Of a DNA stretch of 64,000 nt, positions 56,041-63,407 are shown piece after piece. Source of the DNA: Candidatus Poribacteria bacterium (GTDB lineage: Bacteria; Poribacteria; WGA-4E; WGA-3G). Both the position numbers and the translations under genes were made by a program. Within the stretch, counting starts at the first letter, position 1; each line of letters opens with the position of its first letter. The notes under the pieces are model-generated. The model did not search any database and was not told the origin of the DNA. It was given only the letters and a program-made list of their open reading frames with translations. Location: contig JAJEIE010000033.1 in NCBI GenBank assembly GCA_022827625.1, forward strand, positions 310,001-374,000, in the 5' to 3' direction.

Positions 56041-57066
56041 ATGGGCTATAGTGATGGTAGAAAACAGGTCGAGCGTATCTTGGATTTAGCCAGAACGCTT
56101 GAGATATCTTCAGGGATACGAGTTGCTGTGTTAGCGCGGTTGTACGGAGTTGATAAAACTCGTATCTATAGCGATTTAAAAATTCTGGAAAATCACTATT
56201 CTGTAGAAAAGAAACAGGGCGTTTATAGAATTCGAGGGAAACGCAAGTTGAACTGGCCTAACATCACGAAGGGAGAAGCCCGGAATCTAAAATTAGTGAT
56301 TGAGGCTTCGCCGCTTGCAAAGCAGGCGCGGTTTGCGGAACTTCTCAAGAGCCTATTGGAAAAACTTCACCAGCCCCTTGCAGCATATATTGAAAAGGCA
56401 CTTGGGGCAAAAGCGGGTCCTCTCCATGAATCCCAGGCAAACTATCTCGAAAGTGGCGACATTTCAATTCAACTCAAATCGGAGGACACTCGCACTGACA
56501 GCGATGCATATTTCGATGTACTGGAGAAAGCACTTCTAAATCGAAGATCCGTACGTGCGAATTATTTACCGGGTGGGAAGACAGAGTCTGTTGAACATGT
56601 GCTTCATCCGTACGCTATCTTTTTCCGGAAATCCGATTGGTATCTTGAGGCGCGCTCCAATTTATCCGAGAATACATCGCTCACTTTTAAGATCCTCCGC
56701 TTCCGAAGCATTACACTGACAGATGAAGTTTTTGAAACCCCAGCAGATTTTTCGTTGCCTGAGGATCTGGCTTCTCGATGGGAACTCTTTAGTGGAGAGC
56801 CGATTAACATCACACTCAAAATCGCCCCGCACAAGGCATATCTTGTTACGGAAAAGGAACGCCACCCATCACAAGAGATTATAGAACGGTGTGCAGATGG
56901 ATCTGTGATTGTCGGTTATGAGGTGCCGAAAGAGGAGTTTACGTTTTGGGTATTGAGTCTTGGTGATGCGGTGGAGGTGTTAGAGCCAGCTGAATTTCGG
57001 ACGGAGTTTGGAGAGATTGTGAGGCGAATGCATGGCATTTATTTCGGAAATTTGAAAGGATCATAG
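56041..57066 (+). CDS. WYL-domain transcriptional regulator
   Basis: 341 residues. An N-terminal helix-turn-helix (RVAVLARLYGVDKTRIYSDLKIL, about 27-50), a helical linker, a WYL domain (about 155-225) with RRSVRANYLPGG, HPYAIFFRKSDWYLEARS and FKILRF, and a C-terminal WCX domain (about 255-335). WYL proteins bind nucleic-acid-like ligands or nucleotides and often regulate CRISPR-Cas and other defence genes. GGAGGA precedes the ATG. It is the first gene of the type I-D region, and two palindromes lie downstream at 57138 and 57212. Confidence 0.9.
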   Translation: MGYSDGRKQVERILDLARTLEISSGIRVAVLARLYGVDKTRIYSDLKILENHYSVEKKQGVYRIRGKRKLNWPNITKGEARNLKLVIEASPLAKQARFAELLKSLLEKLHQPLAAYIEKALGAKAGPLHESQANYLESGDISIQLKSEDTRTDSDAYFDVLEKALLNRRSVRANYLPGGKTESVEHVLHPYAIFFRKSDWYLEARSNLSENTSLTFKILRFRSITLTDEVFETPADFSLPEDLASRWELFSGEPINITLKIAPHKAYLVTEKERHPSQEIIERCADGSVIVGYEVPKEEFTFWVLSLGDAVEVLEPAEFRTEFGEIVRRMHGIYFGNLKGS

Positions 57067-57137
57067 AAATTTTTTGCATTTTTGAGTTGACAAGCGAGGT
57101 CAAGTCATATATAATAATTTTGCGTGCTGGCAAAAGT

Positions 57138-57153
57138 ATCTCAATCTTGAGAT
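57138..57153. promoter_or_regulatory. Operator-like palindrome 1
   Basis: ATCTCAATCTTGAGAT: 7-bp arms around TC, perfect dyad. It lies after the WYL gene and resembles the site at 57212. Confidence 0.5.
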
Positions 57154-57211
57154 TGAAAGATTAGAATCTTCGTATGCCACATTCCAGCATTTCAATGTGT
57201 TGATGAGAAGT

Positions 57212-57227
57212 ATCTCGATTGCGAGAT
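57212..57227. promoter_or_regulatory. Operator-like palindrome 2
   Basis: ATCTCGATTGCGAGAT: 6-bp arms around ATTG, preceded by AGT as is palindrome 1 (AGTATCTC). It ends 10 bases before the -35 box at 57238, and the spacing to palindrome 1 is 74 bp. Confidence 0.5.
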
Positions 57228-57237
57228 GAAGAAAAAT

Positions 57238-57267
57238 TTGACATACGCATACGGAACATGTTATCAT
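57238..57267 (+). promoter_or_regulatory. Promoter of the DUF3800 gene
   Basis: TTGACA (57238-57243), 18-bp spacer, TATCAT (57262-57267) with a TG one base before it (extended -10). Confidence 0.6.
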
Positions 57268-57325
57268 TAATTTTATAGTTATTAGAATCAATAGTATGTC
57301 ACCCCAAAATTAAAGCAAAAACGGC

Positions 57326-57931
57326 ATGTATAAAAATCCGAAACGAACTGTTGTAAAACCGAAACGAATGAATCTCTACTTTGAAGAATCTGGGCAAAAT
57401 ACAAGAGGCAGGTTTTTCATTGTTGCTGGAGTTGCAGTAGACAAAAGTGAGGAGTTTAGGAAACTTTGCGAATCCTATGAAAGAATTTCAGGCAAAAGAA
57501 AAAAGAAATGGAGTAAAGCTCACAAAGATAAACGGTTGGCTTATTTGCGTTCTTCAATATCAGGTGCTGCTTCTCTTAAAGTTACCTTATTTTATAGCGT
57601 CTTTTATGAAACAACTGCCTATGATGAGGCAACAATTAAAGGCATTGCAAAAACACTTCGAAGGCTGTCTCCTTTTGACTTTAGAGCCTACGTTTACGTT
57701 GATGGATTGGGAAAAGCGAAATGTCGCAGTTACAAAACCAATTTGCGAAAACTCGGGTATCCTGTCGAAAAGGTGAATGGTATCAGAAAAGATGAAAACG
57801 AACCTCTCATACGGTTAGCAGACGCAGTAGCCGGGGCCGCAGGACATTTGGAAAAACATCCGTCCGACGCAGCAGAAATTGATACGTTGTTTGCTCAAGC
57901 GAAGGAACAGGGCACGCTTGTTAGACTTTAA
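57326..57931 (+). CDS. DUF3800 domain protein (probable RNase H-fold nuclease)
   Basis: 201 residues from 57326; the ATG at 57368 (MNLYFEESGQ) is the alternative start and fits family starts better, but neither has a strong RBS. Visible acids: YFEESGQ near the N-terminus (usually Y-x-D-E-S-G), AYVYVDGLGK in the middle and the C-terminal RLADAVAGA, as expected for a DUF3800 metal-dependent RNase H-like core. The first acid being Glu is slightly unusual. The stop codon is 2 bases before the first of two structured RNAs. Families of RNAs near DUF3800 genes (motifs DUF3800-I to -XI) have been described by comparative genomics, so the pair is probably functional. Confidence 0.8.
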   Translation: MYKNPKRTVVKPKRMNLYFEESGQNTRGRFFIVAGVAVDKSEEFRKLCESYERISGKRKKKWSKAHKDKRLAYLRSSISGAASLKVTLFYSVFYETTAYDEATIKGIAKTLRRLSPFDFRAYVYVDGLGKAKCRSYKTNLRKLGYPVEKVNGIRKDENEPLIRLADAVAGAAGHLEKHPSDAAEIDTLFAQAKEQGTLVRL

Positions 57932-57933
57932 AA

Positions 57934-58034
57934 CAGAAAACCACCCCTCACGTGGGGGTGGGCAACCTATTCTCCCAGCCGGCCGGGAGACAGCTCAGCC
58001 TACACAATAGTTTTCGGCTGCTATTTTACTTCTG
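57934..58034 (+). ncRNA. DUF3800-associated structured RNA, copy 1
   Basis: About 101 nt closed by CAGAA (57934-57938) and UUCUG (58030-58034). P1 is CCACCCC/GGGGUGG (57941-57947 with 57955-57961). P2 is CUCCC/GGGAG (57972-57976 with 57985-57989), an A-C mismatch and G-C, with loop CCGG. P3 is CAGCC/GGCUG (57996-58000 with 58016-58020). Linker sequences GGCAACCUAU, CAGCUCAGCCUAC and UUUUCGGCUGCUAUUUUACU are shared with copy 2. Strand is taken from the adjacent gene. Confidence 0.7.
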
Positions 58035-58042
58035 GGATCCGG

Positions 58043-58141
58043 CAGAAAACCACCTTGGTGAAAAGGGGGCAACCTATCCTGCTGACCGGTCAACAGGCAG
58101 CTCAGCCTACGCAACAGTTTTCGGCTGCTATTTTACTTCTG
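58043..58141 (+). ncRNA. DUF3800-associated structured RNA, copy 2
   Basis: About 99 nt, 8 nt after copy 1. Closing stem CAGAA/UUCUG (58043-58047 with 58137-58141). P2 is CCUG/CAGG (58078-58081 with 58094-58097), a C-A mismatch, UGA/UCA (58083-58085 with 58090-58092) and the same CCGG loop; its paired bases differ from copy 1 but still pair. P3 CAGCC/GGCUG is at 58103-58107 with 58123-58127. P1 is shorter here (ACC/GGU). Confidence 0.7.
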
Positions 58142-58292
58142 CAAGTAAATTATACGTTAAAGTATATCATATTTCATTATACAGAGTCAAGGAATTTTCG
58201 CAATCTCTGATTTTTTTTGAAAAAAAGACTGAATTTTCTGCATTTTTAAGTCGAATTTTTTGTCTTTTGTGTAAAACGCAAATTATATGTAG

Positions 58293-58298
58293 TATAAT
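58293..58298 (+). promoter_or_regulatory. Possible -10 box for the cas operon
   Basis: TATAAT at 58293-58298, 50 bases before cas3. No good -35 at 16-18 bp is visible (TTGTGT lies 20 bp upstream), so an activator or a nonconsensus promoter is possible. Confidence 0.35.
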
Positions 58299-58347
58299 AT
58301 TGAGTAACTAAGGTAAAGATAAAATTCTTGGTTTTCAGGAGAATAAA

Positions 58348-60405
58348 ATGAATCCTATTAAAGTTTTACCTGTCTACTCTCGGATCTCTCAATCCGATCC
58401 GATTGCCGACCTGCCAAACGGACTTTCTTTACGGGAACATCAGGTTAAAACGTTTGAAGCAATTCGAGATCCCGATGTTGATGTTGTTTTCAATACTGCA
58501 ATGACAGGTGATGGAAAAAGTTTAGCAGCATATCTACCAGTGTTAATTAATAATCGCCGCGTTTTGGCGATGTATCCGACAAATGAGTTAATCCTTGACC
58601 AACGTAAACAAATCAAATCTTACTGTGATTTATTTGGGAGGAATATTACGCCTGAATGTATGTTCAGTGAGTGTCTGTATGATCTCCGCGCAGAATTGAA
58701 ATTGGGTAGCCAAGCGAGTACGATAGAATTTTTGGCGGCGGGACACGAAGTTTTACTGACAAACCCGGATATTTTCAACCTTATTGCTAATTTCAAGTAC
58801 ATGAGTGAGCACCAAAATCCAGATCGGCTATTGCAGACCATTCTGAATTGTTACGACGTATTTCTGTTTGATGAATTTCATATCTACGACGTTTCGCAAG
58901 TTGTGTCTGTCCTGACTGCTATGTTGTACATCATTGAACAAGCACGAAATACACGTGAACGGAAGAAATTTGTTTTTCTTTCCGCTACCCCAAACCAGCT
59001 GCTCTCAGAATGTTTGGATCAATCCGGACTTCAGTATGAAATCATTGAAGGTGACTATAGATTTGAAAATACCGACGCACAGAATTGGAATCAGATTTGT
59101 CAACCTTTTACACTTCATTTCCATGGCGTTGGACGGGAGACTGAGATTTGGATTCAAAACCATTATCAGGAGATGGTGAATTGGTTTTCCGACAACCCAG
59201 GCTCACGCGGGGCTATTATTGTCAATTCAGTTGCAACAGCAAAACGTATCATAGGGTTTTTTAAAGAACGCCAGAAAGTAGATGATTTCCCGTTGAGTTT
59301 CGGTGAAATTACTGGATTGACCAGCAAACAAGAAAAAGAATCCGCTCGTAAGACGGAATTAGTTGTGGGGACCTCTACAGTTGATGTTGGTATTGACTTT
59401 GAGATTAACTATCTCATTTTTGAGGCGTTAGATGCCGGTTCATGGGTTCAACGCCTTGGTAGACTTGGAAGACACAGTGGGTACAAGCAAGTTGTTTTTA
59501 CCAATTTCGTCGCACACTCTCTGCTTCCGAAATATGTAGCCGAACGGACAGAAACTGCCAATATTCCTGAGGAGATCAATAAAGTATCGTTGGTAGAATC
59601 CATAAAAAATAATGACAAAGAGAAACGTATTTTCTCACCTACCAATGATTTTCGGAACTATCAACGTTCATGGGGTTGGCTCCATCCTACCCATGTCATT
59701 AACACATTGGGACACCCTCGGTTGCGCGATAACTACGCATCTCTACGAAAACAATTGACAGAAACCTATAATGATACCTTTAAGGTAGACATCAGTGAAC
59801 GGGTAAAGTGGTATTACAAAATCACGCAGAAGCGACCTGAAATCATTGAAAATGCTGTGACTCAGTTTCGTGGTGAAACACCCTTCACATGTGGTATCTT
59901 TGATGAAGATGATGGTGAAATTAAAACCTATGATTTACTATGGATTCTCAAGAATGCTGAGACTGAATGGGTGAACAAGCGCGATTTCATGGAAACCGTT
60001 GAAGCACGAGGTATTCAGCCACATAGGTATAAGTATGTTGATATTTATTTAAGGTTGCTGAAATATCGTCCTGAGCCCGAGCGACTGAGGCTCCGCTACA
60101 ATAAGGCAATTTTGAGTGGATTTAGCGAAGATGCGTATTGCCAAGTAAGGGCACGTCAAGGCTTTCAAATTGATGGCAATTTCCAAGACATTAACAGGAT
60201 TAACCGTTTACTCAAGCGCAAGAAACTCCTGTGTCTTATCCGCAAGGAGGCAGCAGGTGAACTGAGATCGTGTCTACTGCTTCCTCCGCTTTTTGGTATT
60301 TTCCCTTTGATTGATGCTGAGGGAAATGAACAACTGAGCGTTACTTTTTCTAGAGACGCTCTCTTGTTACAATCATTACCCTATATTTGGGCAAAGGAGA
60401 GATAA
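58348..60405 (+). CDS. cas3: Type I-D CRISPR-associated helicase Cas3 (no HD domain)
   Basis: 685 residues. An SF2 helicase: Q-like region SLREHQVKTFEAI, Walker A MTGDGKSLAAY (54-58 GDGKS), DEAD-type FLFDEFHIYD (near 174), SATPNQLL (near 211), and motif V/VI GTSTVDVGIDFEINY...WVQRLGRLGRH (near 350-376). There is no HD nuclease domain, as expected in subtype I-D where the HD is on Cas10d. It unwinds target DNA during interference. AGGAG precedes the ATG, and the stop is two bases before cas10d. Confidence 0.9.
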   Translation: MNPIKVLPVYSRISQSDPIADLPNGLSLREHQVKTFEAIRDPDVDVVFNTAMTGDGKSLAAYLPVLINNRRVLAMYPTNELILDQRKQIKSYCDLFGRNITPECMFSECLYDLRAELKLGSQASTIEFLAAGHEVLLTNPDIFNLIANFKYMSEHQNPDRLLQTILNCYDVFLFDEFHIYDVSQVVSVLTAMLYIIEQARNTRERKKFVFLSATPNQLLSECLDQSGLQYEIIEGDYRFENTDAQNWNQICQPFTLHFHGVGRETEIWIQNHYQEMVNWFSDNPGSRGAIIVNSVATAKRIIGFFKERQKVDDFPLSFGEITGLTSKQEKESARKTELVVGTSTVDVGIDFEINYLIFEALDAGSWVQRLGRLGRHSGYKQVVFTNFVAHSLLPKYVAERTETANIPEEINKVSLVESIKNNDKEKRIFSPTNDFRNYQRSWGWLHPTHVINTLGHPRLRDNYASLRKQLTETYNDTFKVDISERVKWYYKITQKRPEIIENAVTQFRGETPFTCGIFDEDDGEIKTYDLLWILKNAETEWVNKRDFMETVEARGIQPHRYKYVDIYLRLLKYRPEPERLRLRYNKAILSGFSEDAYCQVRARQGFQIDGNFQDINRINRLLKRKKLLCLIRKEAAGELRSCLLLPPLFGIFPLIDAEGNEQLSVTFSRDALLLQSLPYIWAKER

Positions 60406-60407
60406 GT

Positions 60408-63407
60408 ATGACTGAACAACTTGAAATGTTTGATCAATCAGACAATAGCGAAGAAAAACGCGAAGAGGCACTTATTCCGACGCAACTCGATCAGCTGATT
60501 GATCTAGCGGACGATGAGGTTGAAACTGAAGAAGTACCTGCTTATATTGCGCTTCTGAAAGCGGCAATTCCAGATGATGATCATGTGTTGCAAGACTACG
60601 TTGAAATTGTGGGACCCCAAATGCAAAAGGAATACACACTGCGTTCCGCAAAAGGGAGTTCCGTTGAAAGATATGCCCGGAATGACGATCAAAGCATGCT
60701 GACGCACGTTTTAAACGGGATTTTTCCAACGTTGCAAATTGTAAGGGAGTCTGGAACGGCTTTGAGTAACGTTGAAAAACAAATCTACCTCATTGCTTAT
60801 ACACTCCACGACTTGGACAAGTTAGTAAATGTTCAAGGGTTAAGTGTAGCAGATGTTGAAAAGAAAAGCGAGTTTTACGGCTATCTTGATGAATGGGTAG
60901 AACGGTTATGCTTTGATCGCTTTTGTCCGGAATACGATACCTATCGTGAGGATATTGGCTATTTGATTCTGAATACGCAAGTAAAATATGGTGCGGATCT
61001 CAACCCACAAAATTTTGATCGCCAACTTCCGGGGAACCGCCATGAGTTTTTGAAAAAGATGTGCCGGTTTTCCGATCTCATCGCTTATTTCATGAAAAAT
61101 CCCGCAAGTTTCTTGGAGAGACAGGACCTTTCGGAATCACTTACTCATTTAAGTCGTGGAAAACTTGTGTTTGCGTATCACAAGGTGTCCGAAAACCGAG
61201 GGATGCTAACTAACGTCATTAACAATGCTATTCTTGCGGAGATGCAAGACAACTTTGGGTGGAGACCGTTTCTATTTTTTCCTACTGGCGTGACGTATCT
61301 ACGTTTCCGGAATTCGGATGACAAAGCACTCCCAACAGGAGATGAGATTGCTGAAATTGTTGTAGAGAAACTCAAAACCTACTGTGCTTCCCGACTTCAA
61401 CAGAATCTGAACGGTTTTACGCGCAGTGGAAAAGGTTTCAAATATGCGGATTATTATGATGCTTTCTTTGATCCAAAAGATATGTTGAGGTTAATCCAAA
61501 AAGGTTGTTTTAAAATTCTTCGACAAGATAAAGCACCGTCAGCAGGTAAAAGGCTGGCAAAACTCCAGCAACTTCAAATGGAAGGTAAGATTTCTGAAGA
61601 TATTTCGTTGGATTTTGAAGATGACCTTCGTGTTGATCAGTTGGCGGAGTATCTTGTTGAGATAGAGAAACTGATTGGTAGATTCGCATCGCGGGAAGCT
61701 GTAGCACATGAAATGCTTTCTTATCTTGGGATGCAGGAGTGGCAAGAAGTTTTTACATCTATTCCAAGTCAAGGAGGTGTACCTTTACCATGGTATTTTA
61801 TAGCTGGTAAGTACCTCTTGCGAAATCGCGGCAAAGATGAAAATGACATGCGAGAACTGTTTGAGGGGGTAGCTGAGCATATCACTCAGGTATTTGCTGA
61901 AACTATTGGGAATCAAGCACAATTCGATAGTTTTGCCACGCTGCGAGATTATGTTAAGCAGACAGTTGATATTAACGGACATCAAAACATCCATCAAGAT
62001 TTTCAGACAGAACTCGCTCGGTACACCAACACAAAAAAAGTTGGCCGGGGTTCAGACAAGGGGTGTTCTCTCTGTTCATCAGCTTTCCAGACGCAGGAAT
62101 CTCGCGAAACGGATGTAATTTTTGCACCTCAGGTTTACAGTAATAAAAACCCGATTAATTCGGGGAGGGTAAGGCGAGGAATCTGTCAACTGTGCCAGAT
62201 GGAAATGATGCTCCGTCAAATTCTAATACGTTCACGATGGAACCTCGTTGGGGCAGGATATGAGAGCGTTAAAATCAAGTGGCTCTATTTCTATCCAAGT
62301 TATTTCTTTACGCCAGAAACGTCTAAGATTATCGGAGAGGCTTATCAAAGCCTGAAATCCTTGAATTTCTTTGATGTTCGGAAAAAACTTCACAAAGGTA
62401 GTGCAGCAACCGATTTAATAGAGCTTGATGAATTCATTATTGACACTGAGATTCCTGACACTGAGAAGGAGAATCTGCTTAAAATGGATTTTAGTGAAAA
62501 TGATTTGGCAACCTTCTATTTCTGCGGCATTCCAACCCTTGGTACCCGACCAACTGATACAGAATCTTGGGCAATGCCTACATTCCTAAGCCTTCTCTCA
62601 ATGCTCGCTTTTAATGCGAAAGTTGTCGTGACGGAGTCGCAGGTGCCGCTTTACCACAGCGCGGAGGAATTTAAAGAGACTATAGTTCTTAATGCTCCAC
62701 ATCCTTTTGTTACACATATTTTGAAAAAAGATAGACTCCGCATTGATGAGATAGAGGCAAGTTTAGAAAAACTTGCAGCTACCTACGACATCAATATTGA
62801 TGCCTTTCGTGACGGTGCTAAACCGCAGTGGCAACATCTTAATGGGGTTGCGGGGAATATAGCGAGTGATCCGTTGTATGTATTCCACTATCTTGATGTT
62901 CTTCGTCGCAAAAATAAGTGGGATAGTTTTCCGAAACCCAGAGACGGGGATATATTCATTCCCGAACGTTATTTACAATTCTATGAAATCCTTGGAGGTG
63001 ACAAAATGAGTCTGATTGAAGGCATTGCACAACGATGCTTTAATTTCTATGGACCTGATTCTTTTAACCCCAATAGTGTGTTGAAAGTAATCACCTTGGT
63101 GGAAGATGTTATCATTAACAGCGATCCGACGATCAATCCAATTGACTTGAAATGGGAGGCGCGCGGTGAAGTCCACAATCTGATGCAACGCGTTAGAAGT
63201 AGTCGGGCACAGGGCTTCGCTCGTTTGCTCCAACAAGAAGAGCCTATGGCTATTGAAGCGTTGATTGATTATTTTTACGACCAAGTATTTATGGATGATT
63301 ATAAAGGACAGCGGGCAATCTTACGCGCCCGCCGGAACCGTCTTAACGCTGGTATCAACGCTTGGTATCAGGCGAACTGGCAACAATTCCGAAAAGAAAA
63401 AAAATAA
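60408..63407 (+). CDS. cas10d: Type I-D Cas10d (Csc3) large subunit
   Basis: 999 residues from the ATG at 60408, which has AAAGGAGAG 7 bases upstream; a TTG at 60387 inside cas3 is rejected. The N-terminal HD nuclease is marked by IAYTLHDLDKL (near 134). A zinc-finger region has CSLCSSAF (near 553) and CQLCQMEM (near 593). The C-terminal Cas10-like palm lacks a GGDD motif, as in other Cas10d proteins. With Csc1 and Csc2 it forms the I-D effector and supplies the nuclease acting on target DNA. csc2 begins 12 bases downstream. Confidence 0.88.
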   Translation: MTEQLEMFDQSDNSEEKREEALIPTQLDQLIDLADDEVETEEVPAYIALLKAAIPDDDHVLQDYVEIVGPQMQKEYTLRSAKGSSVERYARNDDQSMLTHVLNGIFPTLQIVRESGTALSNVEKQIYLIAYTLHDLDKLVNVQGLSVADVEKKSEFYGYLDEWVERLCFDRFCPEYDTYREDIGYLILNTQVKYGADLNPQNFDRQLPGNRHEFLKKMCRFSDLIAYFMKNPASFLERQDLSESLTHLSRGKLVFAYHKVSENRGMLTNVINNAILAEMQDNFGWRPFLFFPTGVTYLRFRNSDDKALPTGDEIAEIVVEKLKTYCASRLQQNLNGFTRSGKGFKYADYYDAFFDPKDMLRLIQKGCFKILRQDKAPSAGKRLAKLQQLQMEGKISEDISLDFEDDLRVDQLAEYLVEIEKLIGRFASREAVAHEMLSYLGMQEWQEVFTSIPSQGGVPLPWYFIAGKYLLRNRGKDENDMRELFEGVAEHITQVFAETIGNQAQFDSFATLRDYVKQTVDINGHQNIHQDFQTELARYTNTKKVGRGSDKGCSLCSSAFQTQESRETDVIFAPQVYSNKNPINSGRVRRGICQLCQMEMMLRQILIRSRWNLVGAGYESVKIKWLYFYPSYFFTPETSKIIGEAYQSLKSLNFFDVRKKLHKGSAATDLIELDEFIIDTEIPDTEKENLLKMDFSENDLATFYFCGIPTLGTRPTDTESWAMPTFLSLLSMLAFNAKVVVTESQVPLYHSAEEFKETIVLNAPHPFVTHILKKDRLRIDEIEASLEKLAATYDINIDAFRDGAKPQWQHLNGVAGNIASDPLYVFHYLDVLRRKNKWDSFPKPRDGDIFIPERYLQFYEILGGDKMSLIEGIAQRCFNFYGPDSFNPNSVLKVITLVEDVIINSDPTINPIDLKWEARGEVHNLMQRVRSSRAQGFARLLQQEEPMAIEALIDYFYDQVFMDDYKGQRAILRARRNRLNAGINAWYQANWQQFRKEKK

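Follow-up and report, generated by a model that had tools for sequence, protein, structure and literature searches.

Here we describe a DUF3800 gene of Candidatus Poribacteria that is flanked on one side by a degenerate mini-CRISPR, whose guide matches a site in the promoter region of that gene, and on the other by a tandem pair of structured RNAs that would be transcribed back towards it. On balance, we interpret the locus as a CRISPR-regulated effector module resembling CrePA and CreTA, built on DUF3800 and with the convergent RNAs as its partner. The mini-CRISPR together with its promoter target, which was absent from the original prediction made for this DNA, is the strongest functional clue at the locus.

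Locus organisation

In the window, which is the whole stretch of 64,000 nucleotides that was analysed, the locus comprises the following features:

56041-57066, +: WYL-domain regulator gene, 341 aa (Pfam WYL 1.9e-12, WCX 1.7e-14)
57087-57115, +: mini-CRISPR promoter, TTGACA-17-TATAAT, a perfect consensus (12/12)
57123-57159, +: psiR1, degenerate CRISPR repeat, 16/22 match to the 3' part of the repeat
57160-57196, +: psiS, spacer-like guide, starting ATTAGAATCTTCGTATGCC
57197-57231, +: psiR2, second degenerate repeat
57238-57267, +: DUF3800 promoter, TTGACA-18-TATCAT, 11/12 consensus
57278-57289, +: PAM GTT and target ATTAGAATC, matching psiS positions 1-9
57326-57931, +: DUF3800 gene, 201 aa, predicted RNase HII-like fold (Pfam 5.9e-7)
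57934-58034, -: structured RNA unit 1, 3'-distal on the minus strand, with the terminator hairpin at 57961-57941 plus UUUUCUGUUU at its end
58043-58141, -: structured RNA unit 2, 5'-proximal on the minus strand
58161-58190, -: promoter of the RNA pair, TTGACT-18-TATACT, directed toward DUF3800
58348-60405, +: cas3d, first gene of the type I-D operon (PADLOC Cas3d 3.9e-152)
60387-63407, +: cas10d (PADLOC Cas10_Id 3.7e-159)

Past the end of the window follow cas7d, cas5d, cas6d and a cas4-cas1 fusion, and then an array of 32 repeats. The type I-D neighbourhood, which the original prediction had singled out, is indeed a recurrent feature: at 20 of the 27 places where the RNA was found, core cas genes of type I-D or I-B lie directly downstream, and at most of the 27 a WYL gene lies upstream, with hsdM downstream at two (loci L050 and L061). 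Negative regulation by a WYL protein is known for one type I-D locus (PMC10212523). A 23-nt repeat, 87% identical between its two copies, is found in the mini-CRISPR promoter region (57068-57090) and in the cas promoter region (58232-58254), and might serve the WYL regulator as a common operator. At L037, L050 and L054 a second WYL-like gene separates the RNA pair from the genes that follow.

The mini-CRISPR and its target in the DUF3800 promoter

Between the WYL gene and DUF3800 lies a degenerate repeat-spacer-repeat element (57123-57231). Its two repeats are spaced 74 nt from start to start, compared with 72-77 nt in the true array, for which the repeat was taken from the locus sequence L092. 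The same layout of a lone spacer between degenerate repeats near cas genes, as in CreA-type guides, is present in the window and at nine other DUF3800 loci; eight of these ten genes are intact and two (L039 and L041) contain stops. At L039 and L041, where the stops break DUF3800, the mini-CRISPR, target and RNAs appear intact. No mini-CRISPR was detected at L045 and L061 despite an open DUF3800 frame.

In all ten loci a site approximately 10-14 nt 3' of the DUF3800 -10 box agrees with psiS at positions 1-5 and 7-9, against an expectation of 0.016-0.048 sites per stretch. The match extends over the full seed, positions 1-5 and 7-11, in nine of the ten; the exception is the window itself, where it covers positions 1-9 and positions 10-11 are mismatched. 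Mismatches at position 6 or 12 occur at several loci. The target is preceded by a GTT PAM in eight loci and by GTC and GCT in the remaining two. True spacer-target pairings score better than permuted ones, and 2 of 50,000 random pairings reach them. These comparisons used seed scoring, as scoring over 15 psiS positions missed three loci that have a 1-nt shift after the seed. It has been established experimentally that the CreA seed comprises positions 1-5 and 7-11, with positions 6 and 12 free (PMC8501985), and the type I-D PAM is GTN/GTH. The pattern of psiS matches thus corresponds to the published CreA seed rule, and the GTT to the type I-D PAM. On this comparative evidence, CreA-like control of DUF3800 appears well supported.

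Real arrays have the same repeat-spacer-repeat layout, and the element might instead be just a short array of the usual kind, or regulate cas in the manner of CreR, with its match to the DUF3800 promoter being incidental. We consider this very improbable, since the promoter match is present in ten of ten loci and follows the spacer found at the same locus. Furthermore, no seed with a GTN PAM was found between the units and cas in any of the ten loci, so that no guide directed against the cas promoter is apparent there and the mini-CRISPR is not a CreR-type autoregulator of cas.

Structured RNA units and their coding strand

The original prediction of two tandem units of about 100 nt with common ends is borne out, both in the window and across relatives. 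The two units share 84% identity across 75 nt, a spacing of 107 nt and, read on the plus strand, CAGAA...UUCUG termini. A DNA search of 98 related genomes identified units in 25, belonging to four genera of one family and almost always present as two to three tandem copies per locus, and they are therefore not a product of chance. A covariance model recovered the identical 25 genomes among 85 of the phylum, and 84,980 species scanned for the sequence pattern yielded 17 records, from Candidatus Poribacteria only. The RNA pattern is also found at 2140-2160 of a 5.3 kb IMG/VR contig (L149). No Rfam family matched anywhere in the window at gathering scores, and at E <= 10 across 57100-58350 no match overlapped the units and only implausible matches were obtained elsewhere. 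The units had been expected to represent one of the published DUF3800 motifs. They resemble DUF3800-I to XI in being conserved structured RNAs adjoining a DUF3800 gene, but the covariance-model search found no match to any of these models and they are therefore not motifs I to XI as defined in Rfam 15. Judged by these searches, the units are a new structured RNA family, known here only from Candidatus Poribacteria.

Most units share one site between WYL and cas, and we accordingly rejected the idea of a mobile element for which units with and without DUF3800 would be the autonomous and non-autonomous forms. In one genome (G006; L036 8350-9005, oriented) there are two successive RNA pairs, with spacings of 107 and about 135 nt, separated by a copy of the cas promoter region. 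The genome from which the window comes has a second RNA pair adjoining another DUF3800 gene (contig C26; L061 9286-9523 and 12297-12986); this gene is without a mini-CRISPR, and the neighbouring type I restriction-modification operon includes a third DUF3800 gene.

That the copies covary, as proposed from the two units of the window, is confirmed by an alignment of 55 units, in which all eight P2 pairs are doubly changed, with 168 doubly changed cells compared with 64 in shuffles. Fifteen pairs in these 55 units are changed on both sides, likewise more than in shuffles. It should be noted that the shuffle control leaves relatedness in place, and that sliding the partner columns abolishes the covariation signal. 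The P2 loop, previously described as an invariant CCGG, in fact varies among units. In many of them (for example at 58078-58097 of the window) the P2 hairpin is centred on the palindrome GACCGGUC, which could permit loop-loop dimers between tandem units. An alternative hairpin pairing columns 87-90 with 96-99 of the plus-strand alignment showed zero double changes and was discarded.

Several lines of evidence bear on which strand encodes the RNAs. Helices drawn on the plus strand contain 113 A-C and 23 G-U combinations, and since an A-C combination on one strand is a G-U pair on the other, the functional strand is the minus strand; the A-C and C-A mismatches reported earlier in P2 are G-U wobbles when read in this direction. 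The proportion of helix cells that are paired is 97.4% on the minus strand (29-sequence alignment) against 91.1% on the plus strand (55-sequence alignment), and the minus-strand reading of the 29 sequences has 92 doubly changed cells compared with 32 in shuffles. When the tandem pair was folded, the minus strand gave a z-score of -2.27 relative to its shuffles, whereas the plus strand, at -0.72, was no better than shuffles.

The minus strand also carries the signals expected of a transcription unit. A TTGAC(A/T)-N17-TATACT promoter lies 5-18 nt ahead of the RNA at nearly all 27 loci and is kept beside the last unit even where the flanks are otherwise unrelated. An automatic promoter scan chose another spot at four loci (L054, L059, L061 and the window), although TTGA...TATAC/TATCC elements are nonetheless visible by alignment in the window, L059 and L061. 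At the other end, a minus-strand terminator (57961-57941, CCACCCC...GGGGTGG, TTTTCTGTTT) closes the distal unit, its stem being formed by the hairpin of the unit closest to DUF3800. From pairing and signals alike, the RNAs are almost certainly made from the minus strand. With its own promoter and terminator on that strand, the pair represents an independent small RNA that runs divergently from cas and converges on DUF3800, rather than forming its 3' UTR. Of the earlier description of the units as lying directly 3' of the gene, the adjacency therefore stands, while the strand does not: they are antisense to the DUF3800 transcript. The first unit does begin 3 nt beyond the DUF3800 stop codon (gene end 57931), as a plus-strand 3' UTR or sRNA of that transcript might, but the excess of A-C combinations in plus-strand helices, the conserved promoter and terminator on the minus strand and the better folding of the latter leave this interpretation with scarcely any credence.

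The DUF3800 protein and its linkage to the RNA

To our knowledge, DUF3800 genes and RNAs associated with them have been noted in several settings with no function assigned. An AlphaFold2 model of the protein (pLDDT 92.5) has RNase HII enzymes as its top structural matches (Z 12.8 over 154 residues, rmsd 2.8), and Foldseek retrieved RNase HII at 1e-5. Searching PDB sequences with the DUF3800 profile produced no significant hit, so that the match came from fold comparison alone. The conserved residues include a DES motif, D126 and D166; in the protein of the window, the first of the conserved acidic residues is E rather than D. On the strength of the modelled fold, the gene product is a probable RNA- or DNA-cutting enzyme.

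The original prediction linked the RNA to DUF3800, and this linkage is upheld, though in one direction: within the close DUF3800 clade (at least 49% identity, broken copies included) the RNA is adjacent in 13 of 13 places, so that this clade never occurs without the RNA, whereas the RNA does occur without DUF3800, at about 12 places, and seven RNA-carrying genomes have no DUF3800 match at all. All of these sequences are metagenome-assembled, and assembly errors are possible among the broken copies of DUF3800. Such a one-sided pattern is what a toxin with an RNA antitoxin would leave. The antitoxin reading leaves unexplained the good conservation of the RNA-only loci, which matches that of loci carrying both RNA and DUF3800, and for this reason the RNA may have another role. 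A toxin-antitoxin relation of DUF3800 and the RNA has only moderate support.

A distant DUF3800 subfamily (31-39% identity; nine loci, L150-L158) is accompanied by a different conserved structured RNA. This RNA lies on the opposite strand 3' of DUF3800 (at about 4510-4700 in L150, for example), ends at the stop codon, has its own TTGACA...TATAAT promoter and a terminator, shows two pairs with double changes in the nine sequences and has no match in Rfam. Convergent structured RNAs thus accompany both subfamilies, which makes this arrangement with DUF3800 a recurring one. The Cascade target was found in loci of the first subfamily; the RNA of the second lies away from any mini-CRISPR.

Discussion

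According to the model that we favour, the degenerate mini-CRISPR would yield a crRNA-like guide that brings the cell's own Cascade, here of type I-D, to the PAM and seed past the DUF3800 -10 box, where bound Cascade would shut off transcription of the gene. Loss of Cascade, or its inhibition by an agent such as an anti-CRISPR, would release production of the RNase HII-fold protein, which could then damage the cell or an invader. The tandem RNAs would most likely bind DUF3800 as its RNA partner, restraining the protein in the manner of a type III antitoxin, and they are probably the antitoxin of DUF3800. In its most specific form, which we advance more tentatively, the model describes a doubly guarded CRISPR-addiction module in which a Cascade guide represses a DUF3800 toxin and a convergent RNA antitoxin restrains the protein.

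An unlikely but more substantial competitor to this model is that two modules lie side by side, with the RNA pair serving the CRISPR/WYL neighbourhood, perhaps by binding a protein, and DUF3800 with its mini-CRISPR being a separate CrePA-like insertion. This would account for the equally good conservation of the RNA at loci lacking DUF3800 and for the frequency of type I-D or I-B cas genes downstream of the RNA and of WYL genes upstream. It does not sit easily with the invariable presence of the RNA beside the close DUF3800 clade, with the separate convergent RNA of the second subfamily or with the occurrence of the RNA by restriction-modification genes. Moreover, predicted pairing of the RNA with the leaders of cas, WYL or DUF3800 was inconsistent and unsupported (mean z -0.5 to 0.4).

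Another reading makes the RNAs guides or indispensable cofactors of DUF3800, which would then be an RNA-directed nuclease; a guide role was already conceivable when the units were first noticed. Such a reading would suit both the RNase HII fold and the tight protein-RNA linkage. We nevertheless think it improbable, because variation is located in the paired stems and the unpaired segments show conservation, no hypervariable unpaired segment having been found in the units, and because the RNA persists where the gene is absent.

The favoured model of a CRISPR-regulated DUF3800 module shares features with several known systems. In CrePA as so far described, the toxin CreP contains a KilA-N domain and acts by blocking FtsZ (PMC12737573). 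As in CrePA, a degenerate-repeat guide lies by type I cas genes, a seed and PAM are present at the promoter of a neighbouring gene (in the window without positions 10-11), and the gene so targeted encodes a protein, which here would be the toxic component. What differs is the protein itself, a DUF3800 of RNase HII fold, the structured RNA pair that converges on its gene, and the setting in loci of types I-D and I-B. CreTA is a type VIII system whose toxin, CreT, is a small RNA that acts by sequestering tRNA or by blocking translation. It has the same psiR-psiS-psiR guide and the same seed with free positions 6 and 12 (PMC8501985), but the target described here lies in the promoter of a gene for a 201-aa protein rather than of a small toxic RNA; the structured RNAs use a separate promoter on the opposite strand and so do not take the place of CreT.

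Tandem structured RNA units together with a nuclease-like protein gene are also the hallmark by which the locus resembles type III toxin-antitoxin systems. The known antitoxin repeats of the latter are shorter and lie upstream within the toxin's operon, whereas the RNA described here is convergent with the gene and has its own promoter. The available text of two studies describes DUF3800 proteins with an RNase H fold as accessory genes of some type VI-F and V-A2 CRISPR loci (PMC12669027, PMC10910872). Those loci are Class 2, often with TPR fusions, and the same text reports no mini-CRISPR control or convergent RNA. Likewise, in the accessible portions of the literature naming DUF3800 we found no link to control of such genes by Cascade guides.

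A conserved Cascade target in the DUF3800 promoter implies that the cell would keep the gene off while CRISPR functions. Repression for as long as CRISPR works would suggest a harmful or last-resort role for DUF3800, and the architecture looks like a fail-safe triggered by disablement of CRISPR. If this is true, the few known CRISPR-guarding modules would gain an effector with a nuclease fold as well as a new RNA family, their range would extend to type I-D and I-B loci in uncultured sponge symbionts, and there would be a possible rationale for the presence of DUF3800 proteins within type VI-F and V-A2 loci.
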